From Weeksella massiliensis (GTDB taxonomy: Bacteria; Bacteroidota; Bacteroidia; Flavobacteriales; Weeksellaceae), in contig CCMH01000006.1 in assembly GCA_000751595.1 (NCBI GenBank), forward strand, positions 124,001-188,000: DNA of 64,000 bases. The letters are read 5' to 3'. Both the position numbers and the translations under genes were made by a program. Every line of letters starts with the position of its first letter. Position 1 is the first letter of the stretch. Of this stretch, positions 22,108 to 60,768 are shown one piece after another. Below the pieces are notes generated by a model. It made no database searches, was not told the origin of the DNA, and was given only the letters and a program-made list of their open reading frames with translations.

Positions 22108-22470
22108 ATGAGCATGAAAAAATTATTCATCTTCCTCACGCTACAAGCAGTTGTTTGCGTAATATCGAGCAAATTAATCACCCAAATGGGATGGATTGGC
22201 AAAATTAATAAACGTTTTTTCTACCAAGAATACCGTTTTCTACAAACATGGTGGAAAACAGCCCTTGCCTCTTTTCTCGTTATTCTTTTTATTCACTTAC
22301 TATTAATAAGTCAGAAAAAGTGGAGTTCTCTCCAAACAACCCAAAAAACAGGGATTCTACTTTCTGTTCTGCTGCTTTTTGGTTTCGGATATTCGGTTTA
22401 TGATTTCACTTGGACGAGCCATCAATACTTAATGAACACTTTTCTTATAGGAGTCATATATTTTGGATAA
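22108..22470 (+). CDS. small uncharacterised membrane protein
   Basis: 120 residues (118 if the ATG at 22114 is used), not recognised. Three hydrophobic segments are visible: LFIFLTLQAVVCVISS near the start, TALASFLVILFIHLLLI in the middle, and TGILLSVLLLFGFGYSVY. The basic loop between the first two (KINKRFF) should face the cytoplasm. It begins 20 bases after a strong terminator, so its expression may depend on read-through or attenuation. No function can be given. Confidence 0.55.
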   Translation: MSMKKLFIFLTLQAVVCVISSKLITQMGWIGKINKRFFYQEYRFLQTWWKTALASFLVILFIHLLLISQKKWSSLQTTQKTGILLSVLLLFGFGYSVYDFTWTSHQYLMNTFLIGVIYFG

Positions 22471-27766: not shown

Positions 27767-28510
27767 ATGAACAAAATCGATCCACAAAAAATTCAACTTC
27801 ATCAAACCCAAAAATGGGATATAAAAATTGGTGATTATCTAAGCAAAGGTTTTGAAATCTATAAAAAAGAATGGGTAAATTATTCACTCTTTTCGTTGCT
27901 TTCACTCATCATTGCAATTGTTGCAGGTGCTACTGTAATTGGGATGTTCTTTGTTGCGCTCCCTTTATCTTTAGGCTATGCAGTGGCAACAGAAAAAGTA
28001 GAAAAAAATGAAACACTTTCTTTGAATGATTTTTTTAAGCCTTTCGACAAAACGATGCAACTTTTCATGTTGGCGCTCATTATTATCGGAGTAATCTTTG
28101 TTGGTTATTTAATTGCAGCTCTTCCTTTGGCTTTAACGTCGAATTCGGATGCAAATAATCCTTTATCTATATTTTCGATATTAATATTTTTCATCATTTC
28201 GCTCGTGATCATGTTGTTTGCCGTTTTCATTTTATTTGCGCCTTATTTGGTTTATTTTGGAAATTACTCGGCTTCAGACGCCATTAAAACTTCTATAAAA
28301 TTAGGAAAACAAAATGCATTAATGATATTTCTTTTCCTAGTTGTAAACGGAATTATCGGGCAATTGGGTGCGATTGCGTGTTATGTTGGGATGTTTGTAA
28401 CGCTTCCAATTTCATCGATTGCTATGTATCTAATGGTGAAAGACGCAATTCTTACGACGACAACAGAAAATGATAATTTTAACAATCTAACCACAACATT
28501 CAAGTCATAA
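27767..28510 (+). CDS. polytopic membrane protein, uncharacterised
   Basis: 247 residues with about five membrane segments (LFSLLSLIIAIVAGATVIG; LFMLALIIIGVIFVGYLI; ILIFFIISLVIMLFAVFIL; MIFLFLVVNGIIGQLGAIA; the last is a short one). The N-terminal GDYLSKGFEIYKKEWVNYS and the middle DAIKTSIKLGKQNALMIF repeat the same helical motif, as in DUF4013/DUF975-like proteins. No function is known. Its stop is directly followed by the pabB ATG, so it is co-transcribed. Confidence 0.7.
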   Translation: MNKIDPQKIQLHQTQKWDIKIGDYLSKGFEIYKKEWVNYSLFSLLSLIIAIVAGATVIGMFFVALPLSLGYAVATEKVEKNETLSLNDFFKPFDKTMQLFMLALIIIGVIFVGYLIAALPLALTSNSDANNPLSIFSILIFFIISLVIMLFAVFILFAPYLVYFGNYSASDAIKTSIKLGKQNALMIFLFLVVNGIIGQLGAIACYVGMFVTLPISSIAMYLMVKDAILTTTTENDNFNNLTTTFKS

Positions 28511-58056: not shown

Positions 58057-58089
58057 TAGAGACTGTCTTAATAGACAGTCTCTTTTTTT
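58057..58089 (+). terminator. terminator of the susCD-like pair
   Basis: AGAGACTGTCT pairs with AGACAGTCTCT around TAAT, followed by eight T's, 14 bases after the stop. The following 58090-58250 holds no gene; it is A/T-rich with no clear motif. Confidence 0.9.
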
Positions 58090-58250
58090 TATATTATAAA
58101 ACATAATAGTAACTACATCATTATAATGAAAATTATCCATACCATTCTTTTCTTTTATTAATCCAAAAAATATATTGAGTTTATATCTAATAAATAAAAG
58201 AAATGTTGTCTTTTTTTAATACTTTTGAAGCATTATGTTAACAATTTTTT

Positions 58251-59176
58251 ATGAAAAAAATTAGCTTAATTACTCCTGTTTTTAATGAAGAACAAGCTTT
58301 ACCTATCTACCGCGAAGCATTGAACTTATTTAAAAAAATCATTAGAGAAATATATAATAGAGTGGGTAATTATTGATGACGGAAGCACAGATGCCACCCC
58401 TACAATTATAAGTGATTATGCTGATAATTCTGACGATATAACTTCACTTATTTTTTCTCGAAATTTCGGAAAAGAAGCAGCATTGTTTGCAGGCTTAGAA
58501 GCCTCTACGGGAGATATTGTTATCCCGATGGATATCGATTTGCAAGATCCTTTCGACGTAATTTTTGATATGATTAAATGTTACGAAAACGGAGCTGATG
58601 TCGTCCTCGCAAAAAGAACCAATAGAGATTCTGATAGTAAATTTAAAAGAATGTCTGCTCTTTGGTTTTATAGACTTAATAACAAAATGTCTTCTTTACG
58701 TTTAGAAGAAAATGTAGGGGATTTTCGCTTAATGAATCGACAAGTTGTCGATGAAATCATTCGTTTGCAAGAAAACCAATTGTTTATGAAAGGGTTAGTC
58801 TTGGGTAGGATTCCAAACAGCTATTGTTACATACGAACGCCCAATACGCTCTGGAGGACAAACAAAGTTTAATTTTTTTAAGTTGTGGAATTTAGCCATC
58901 GAAGGAATTACCTCTTTCTCTACGATTCCGCTAAAAGTTTGGCTCTATTTCGGTGGGATAACTTCTTTAACCTCTTTCCTTTTCGGACTGAAAATTATTT
59001 TTGAAAAAATATTCTTAGGCATTTCCGTGTCTGGTTATGCCTCTATAATGGTAACTATTTTATTTTTCGGAGGTGTACAATTAATTGGAATTGGAGTTTT
59101 AGGAGAGTACATCGGCAGAACTTATTTAGAAACTAAACGCAGACCTAAATATATCATCAGAAAAAAAATCAACTAA
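58251..59176 (+). pseudogene. GtrB/DPM-like family 2 glycosyltransferase, two frameshifts
   Basis: Three frames together give a normal polyprenyl-phosphate glycosyltransferase of about 308 codons. Segment 1 (58251 to about 58338) has KISLITPVFNEEQALP. Segment 2 (to about 58798) has EWVIIDDGSTDATP, SRNFGKEAALFAGLE and the metal site DIDLQDP. Segment 3 (to 59176) has SWVGFQTAIVTYERP and two membrane helices ending GEYIGRTYLETKRRP. The first shift is at A7 (58332-58338): six A's would restore the frame. The second is at 58797-58801, where one extra TC would restore GTC TCT TGG. It is probably inactive, unless phase-variable or a sequencing error. It is followed by a GtrII-type gene. Confidence 0.85.
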
Positions 59177-59179
59177 CCA

Positions 59180-60706
59180 ATGGATCATTACACAAATCAA
59201 TCGACTGAAAAAGAACAATTACTTTATATAAAATTTTATAAGACCATCAAGAAATCCTTAGAAGAATTAACCTTTCTACATCTCGCAATTATTGTTGCCG
59301 TATTTTCTTTTCTGTATGTGCTTCCTATCATCTTAACCAATACTTTTTACATCGATGATATGAACCGTACGGTTTTTGGGTACGACTGGGACAGAGATGC
59401 ACGATTTATTTCTTCTAAAATTATGCATCTCCTTTCATTCCAAAAAGACATTGTTTATAGCGGTTATCCCTTTAGTAATATTTTTAGTAGTTTTCTCTTG
59501 GCTTTTTCTGGCTTCCTGCTATGTTATTCAATCGGGATTCGCCATAAAGCATTCCTTTTCATAGGCTCGTTATTGTTACTTACTTGCCCATTTTTATTAG
59601 AGATTTTATGGTATAAATTCGACAGCCTTCCTATTTCACTATCCTTATTTTTTGCAGTATTTCCGTTCGTGTTTTACAATAAACCAATAAAATTTGGGAT
59701 AGTTAGTGCATTCTCTTTGTTTCTGATTTTTGGATTGTACCAAACAACAGCTTTTAGCTATTCTATTATCCTAACATTTTTCTCTATAAAATACATCTGG
59801 AAAAAAGAGTATAAAACAGTTATTATGAATGGATTAATTGGAGTTATATCGTTTGTCATAAGTTTCGTTTGCCATTCTGAGTTGGTGAAAATTTTAGAAA
59901 TTCAAATTATTGATGAACAACGTTCTGAGTTTATTTTCAATCAGCCCAATTTTTCTTTCTTATTAAAAGAACGTTTTGAAGGTTTTAAAGTTTTATTCTA
60001 TGCATTATACACCTCTTCTTATAAATTTTTAATCGGATTTTTACTGGTATTTGTATGTGTTGGTATTATCTCTTTATTAATAAAAACCAAATTAACTTTA
60101 GAACGCTGCATTCAATTAATCATAATTGTAGGGTTAGTATTTTTCGCAATCTTATTAGCCATCGGAATTAATCTATTTGTCATGGATTTTCGCTGGGAAC
60201 CAAGAGCCATGATTGGCTACGCTTTCTTGTTTTATGCCACTCTTTTCGCCATCTATTATATTCCTAAATACAAATCAATCATTGCATTTATTGCTTTTAC
60301 ACCCATAGTATATTATTCATTTCTCATCAGCTCTCAGACAGGTGTTTTTATTAAAAATCAAGAAGAATTTTCAGATTTTGTCATTAATCAAATCTCTACA
60401 GAAGTAATGAAATATGACCACTTGAAACTGGTGATCAACGGTGAAATAAAAAATGCAGAAAGAAATAGAACCGTAAATTATGACGTTTTACCAATCACCA
60501 TCAAATTAGCTCCTAAATACGAAAATTATTCTTGGTACTGGGGAAGAGTCCGAATGAATAAGTTTGGAATTTTTTCGGATGAATTTGTGGATCAAAAAGA
60601 AAGAGAAGAAGTACTTTCCTCTTATGAGTCTTTGCCTCTCATTCAATCAAATTCTATTTATGAATTGCGCATCAAAGAACCATATGCTGTTGTGAAGTTT
60701 AAATAA
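59180..60706 (+). CDS. GtrII-like glucosyltransferase membrane protein
   Basis: 508 residues, about ten membrane helices with a large C-terminal periplasmic part. The early loop FYIDDMNRTVFGYDWDRDARF resembles the GtrII family, whose acidic DD residues bind the lipid-linked sugar. In Shigella phages such proteins transfer glucose from undecaprenyl-P-glucose to O-antigen, with GtrB making the donor and GtrA flipping it. Here the GtrB-like gene is broken and no GtrA is present, so the enzyme may be idle or use another donor. Very A/T-rich. Confidence 0.75.
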   Translation: MDHYTNQSTEKEQLLYIKFYKTIKKSLEELTFLHLAIIVAVFSFLYVLPIILTNTFYIDDMNRTVFGYDWDRDARFISSKIMHLLSFQKDIVYSGYPFSNIFSSFLLAFSGFLLCYSIGIRHKAFLFIGSLLLLTCPFLLEILWYKFDSLPISLSLFFAVFPFVFYNKPIKFGIVSAFSLFLIFGLYQTTAFSYSIILTFFSIKYIWKKEYKTVIMNGLIGVISFVISFVCHSELVKILEIQIIDEQRSEFIFNQPNFSFLLKERFEGFKVLFYALYTSSYKFLIGFLLVFVCVGIISLLIKTKLTLERCIQLIIIVGLVFFAILLAIGINLFVMDFRWEPRAMIGYAFLFYATLFAIYYIPKYKSIIAFIAFTPIVYYSFLISSQTGVFIKNQEEFSDFVINQISTEVMKYDHLKLVINGEIKNAERNRTVNYDVLPITIKLAPKYENYSWYWGRVRMNKFGIFSDEFVDQKEREEVLSSYESLPLIQSNSIYELRIKEPYAVVKFK

Positions 60707-60716
60707 ATATCAAAGC

Positions 60717-60750
60717 AAGATTTAGATTCTGATAAGGGTCTAAATCTTTC
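60717..60750. terminator. weak terminator-like hairpin
   Basis: AAGATTTAGA pairs perfectly with TCTAAATCTT (10 bp), 10 bases after the GtrII-like stop and 18 before the corA stop. The T-run is poor, so strength is uncertain. Confidence 0.5.
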
Positions 60751-60768
60751 ATCAATATTTTTTTCATA

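Follow-up and report, generated by a model that had tools for sequence, protein, structure and literature searches.

An accessory, probably acquired gtrB–GtrII cassette of Weeksella massiliensis with a gtrB gene that appears recently broken by two frame changes

The window, as the term is used here, is the whole 64,000-nucleotide stretch of Weeksella massiliensis DNA that was analyzed. At positions 58251–59176 it encodes a single GtrB-type GT2 protein that is spread over three successive frames of the plus strand, as read from its open reading frames (ORFs) and from alignment to relatives. The first frame (58251–58376, stop at 58374) holds the start and N-terminal part, the second (58333–58872, stop at 58870) holds most of the GT2 catalytic domain, and the third (58799–59176) holds the C-terminal part of GtrB and ends at the normal stop. 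The gene is followed on the same strand by an intact GtrII-type glycosyltransferase gene of 508 codons (59180–60706; PF14264, E 2.9e-26), the kind of partner expected beside gtrB in gtr systems. Both genes lie within a 2.67-kb accessory cassette (58090–60763, plus strand), delimited by blastn and GC content, that is absent at the same place in a congener (genome G002). Elsewhere in the window, a SAM riboswitch occurs at 362–462 on the minus strand.

The assignment of the three frames to one gene follows from matches to each part. The middle piece matches the GT2 catalytic domain family PF00535 (E 2.2e-24), and a single NCBIfam profile of 308 positions, NF047588, is matched by the middle piece at positions 30–180 and then by the last piece at positions 182–304. 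The last piece also aligns to 11 relatives, although alone it matched no Pfam family. The 41-residue first piece alone matched neither a Pfam nor an NCBIfam family, but it can be aligned to the beginning of an intact relative (E 7e-07). Such an arrangement cannot credibly be put down to chance, and the first-pass annotation, which had described one GtrB-type gene split into three frames by two frame changes, was right in these respects. NF047588 is the PgfS equivalog, with a curated cut-off of 500 bits; since the two pieces score 137 and 113 bits, far under that cut-off, we did not class the gene as PgfS; the intact relative L020 reaches 289 bits. Among solved structures, the closest in sequence is that of sll0501, which we take to be the Synechocystis protein named GtrB (PDB 5EKE/5EKP); residues 8–156 of P0001 match 5EKP with an E value of 1.1e-30.

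The two frame changes differ in how closely they can be placed and in their sequence surroundings. Open frames and alignment confine the first to 58324–58376, given that the second frame opens past a stop at 58321–58323 and the first frame stops at 58374. Relatives are poorly conserved across this interval. An extra A in the A7 run at 58332–58338 had been proposed as the cause, and this run, which begins about 27 codons from the gtrB start, is still the likeliest place, even though only the wider interval is fixed by the open frames. The second change falls at 58797–58799, because the second frame matches relatives as far as 58797 and the third matches them from 58799 on. The change itself thus lies where it had been reported; the loss of one TC from a TCTC-like stretch at 58797–58801 does not hold, as no such tract is present. 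Dinucleotide repeats of at least three copies are lacking throughout 58701–58900, the exception being one T run further downstream, and site 2 is outside any repeat. The further view that both sites are prone to slippage is unsupported at site 2 for this reason, and at site 1 the tract is an ordinary one. The window contains 93 A/T runs of at least seven bases, 51 of them within ORFs of 130 aa or more (57 such ORFs, a few of them overlapping), so an A7 run does not set gtrB apart.

A terminator-like hairpin with a T run follows susD at 58058–58088 (plus strand) and is also present in the congener; the cassette starts just past it. Blastn aligns the window with the congener from 28447 to 58089 and again from 60764, and in the congener susD and its terminator lie next to corA, with 40 bases separating the alignment ends. 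The GC content of the cassette is 0.309, compared with 0.368 in the rest of the window, and is below that of every one of 278 overlapping segments of the same size in 1–58089. According to the ORF listing, its content consists of the gtrB pieces, the GtrII gene and a short ORF nested in the latter, with no phage-like genes. A scan of viral_contigs with the middle gtrB piece, using exact peptide patterns that detect close relatives only, returned no relative, and within that limit a phage origin is without support. The only exact direct matches between the cassette ends are two of 8 bases, taken as chance, and a scan for sigma-70 promoters gave 15 matches against 13.7 expected.

In two other genomes of the genus, the middle piece finds at best a remote match (30–34% identity; E 1.7e-11 and 3.8e-12). 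Neither corA nor susD was found at the cut-offs used in genome G001, which therefore cannot polarize gain versus loss of the cassette. Nearest to gtrB are genes of Paenimyroides and Myroides (L020–L024) and of Flavobacterium sp. xlx-214 (L025), at 64–68% identity. All six of these loci carry an intact gtrB followed directly by a PF14264 gene, the same order as here, although in a different neighborhood, beside genes presumed from their translations to be mlaE/mlaF-like, and with gtrB unbroken. In three of these loci the PF14264 gene is followed by a further GtrII-like gene, recognized by Pfam in L020 and by alignment only in L023 and L025. At the more distant loci L026, L045 and L046, the neighbors tested were DUF6056 proteins. 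A family-wide search at 1e-30 found matches in 10 of 296 genomes, including the source genome, while an order-wide search at a strict cut-off recovered only the source genome among 395 and says little on distribution. Taken together, the low GC content, the absence from the congener and the position of the nearest relatives in Paenimyroides and its kin indicate that the cassette was probably acquired horizontally. We infer that the cassette was gained here and not lost from the congener.

Within the aligned gtrB pieces there are no additional stops, and the encoded residues are largely those of intact relatives. The broken gene retains 112 of the 120 scorable sites at which 11 intact relatives do not vary (L020–L026, L045, L046, L047 and L049; L026 coincides in genome and position with the search match L032), all of which have an unbroken frame in the alignment. 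A remote paralogue, L044, was aligned but excluded from the count. When each intact row was left out in turn and scored in the same way, retention ranged from 91 to 100%, from 113/124 (L045) and 113/122 (L026) up to 113/113; the retained share was larger than that of the broken gene in nine of the 11 rows and smaller in two. These scores are raised for the six Paenimyroides, Myroides and Flavobacterium rows, which are 78–94% identical to each other. Measured against those six alone, the broken gene retains 183 of 221 invariant sites, with three of the misses at the join, which fits its 64–68% identity to them. Strong signs of relaxed constraint are thus lacking, and the damage appears to be recent, although mild relaxation is possible. 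Earlier statements that the conserved motifs are kept, with little other decay, and that the damage is recent agree with these counts. The partner is similarly well preserved: of 37 sites at which nine other aligned proteins do not vary, GtrII retains 36, and seven of those nine proteins were tested as PF14264.

These observations are best explained by an accessory gtrB–GtrII cassette, probably acquired, in which gtrB recently became a young pseudogene through two frame changes, a reading we hold with considerable confidence on the strength of sequence comparison. In the established model for gtr operons, undecaprenyl phosphate would normally be charged with a sugar by GtrB, and GtrII would pass that sugar on to a surface glycan outside the membrane. 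The two-gene cassette would have entered between susD and corA, probably horizontally, and two separate recent frame changes would have broken gtrB and left GtrII intact. Slippage at site 1 is a likely origin of one of the breaks, without making the gene a switch. We infer the loss of GtrB function from this anatomy, as we do the identity of the sugar and of the acceptor. A pseudogene is no surprise in the genus, since the published Weeksella virosa genome, in the portion of that report consulted, lists 56 of them (PMC3072086).

The most obvious competing explanation is that the organism itself carries an unbroken gene and that one or both sites are wrong in the consensus, as the first-pass annotation had allowed. 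The genome is a draft assembly of 54 contigs, one of the sites is probably a homopolymer, and the encoded residues are highly conserved, all of which speak for a sequencing or assembly error. Weighing against it is a control based on the congener, with which the window is collinear in four blocks at 87–89% DNA identity. Using ORFs of at least 100 aa, with half-nested ones dropped, 54 of 54 congener ORFs matched the window at >60% identity, and the gene body was never interrupted by a frame break; all four flagged cases are N-terminal extensions with the body itself in frame. This control covers genes shared with the congener and may overlook shifts near the ends of an ORF, within its outer few percent. 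With the comparison reversed, 55 of the 58 window ORFs matched the congener, and the five flagged comprised four N-terminal extensions and the ORF at 27767–28510. The three without a match were 22108–22470 and the cassette ORFs 58483–58872 and 59180–60706. Widespread homopolymer error was thus not seen, and a generally error-ridden assembly is unlikely. Moreover, many A/T runs of at least seven bases sit in window ORFs, site 2 is outside any repeat, and two independent errors <500 bases apart in a single accessory gene would be coincidental. These points weaken the assembly-error option, and a local error we regard as improbable. Two other ORFs singled out by the comparison deserve mention in their own right. 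The 247-aa ORF at 27767–28510 matches the syntenic congener stretch over its last 20 residues only, belongs to no Pfam family and is perhaps a further accessory gene, while the 120-aa ORF at 22108–22470, in an alignment gap near tRNA-Leu, has no match in the syntenic congener stretch and no Pfam family.

If the breaks in gtrB are real, they could still be reversible or be bypassed in expression. Slippage at short tracts might switch GtrB, and hence a surface sugar, on and off, as had been suggested for this gene. The position of the A7 run near the gene start speaks for this, and sampled passages of the literature state that poly(A) tracts of 6–9 near gene starts vary in other bacteria, at frequencies on the order of 1e-7 for A6/A7 (PMC2831843), and that Salmonella gtr operons do phase-vary (PMC2909390). 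In the latter, however, the switch as described in those passages depends on Dam and OxyR acting at the promoter, not on slippage within the coding region (PMC2909390). Simple-repeat contingency loci would carry a repeat tract at each frame break, whereas here there is probably one at site 1 (A7) and none at site 2. Both breaks must revert together, by two independent events, one of them without a tract. Phase variation at both sites was rejected on this ground, and the on/off switching of a surface sugar loses its support with it; A7 runs are common in window ORFs, and where GC is ~37% an A7 run alone says little for phase variation. Overall, we judge switching of this gene very unlikely. An allele that still yields GtrB through ribosomal or transcriptional slippage is scarcely credible. 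A runs can cause transcriptional slippage, and the rescue of broken genes in Buchnera in this manner is mentioned in a portion of one report (PMC2831843), but such rescue could bridge site 1 at best, there being no repeat at site 2, and all 11 intact relatives do without a frame change.

A different question is whether the cassette could work in spite of a broken gtrB. The genome has one GtrII copy only, that of the cassette, and a second GtrB-like gene of 312 aa (L044, positions 22–960) at the extreme end of contig C18, beside wecB, with its other neighbor beyond the contig. Over the aligned pieces, the latter is 36.5% identical to the broken gtrB. GtrII may be fed lipid-linked sugar by this enzyme, in which case the break would alter or reduce the surface sugar and not abolish the modification; we think this rather doubtful. 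No GtrA flippase was recognized above the cut-off of PF04138 (GtrA_DPMS_TM) in the genome, where the one sub-threshold match lies inside a 1221-aa frame, and the three-component gtr arrangement was accordingly not found. The wider bearing of the broken gene is slight unless the intact GtrII proves to be supplied by another GtrB.

The preferred reading of a young gtrB pseudogene in an accessory cassette can be set beside several known systems. Relative to the bactoprenol glucosyltransferase GtrB (sll0501), the GT2 domain, the C-terminal part and two segments that we take to be the DDG and D-x-D motifs of GT2 enzymes are all encoded here, and the difference is the split of the Weeksella gene into three frames. 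The gtrABC O-antigen operons of Salmonella and Shigella likewise place gtrB before a GtrII/GtrC-type enzyme in an accessory block, whereas the Weeksella cassette has neither an adjacent gtrA nor a phage-like gene, and its gtrB is broken. A literature search joining gtrII, frameshift, Shigella flexneri and gtrB found no paper. A parallel is offered by the Salmonella family II gtr operons, for which the sections of the report used here describe a conserved gtrB deletion with gtrC intact and a second gtr operon present, and in which the authors raise possible supply in trans (PMC3688519). The two cases, so far as those sections go, share a damaged gtrB, an intact downstream partner and a possible source of GtrB elsewhere; they differ in that the Salmonella deletion is common to all operons of the family, while the Weeksella gene has two frame changes in one genome (PMC3688519). 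The finding suggests that a Weeksella-like lineage gains gtr-type glycan-modification cassettes and inactivates them, in much the way reported for Salmonella.
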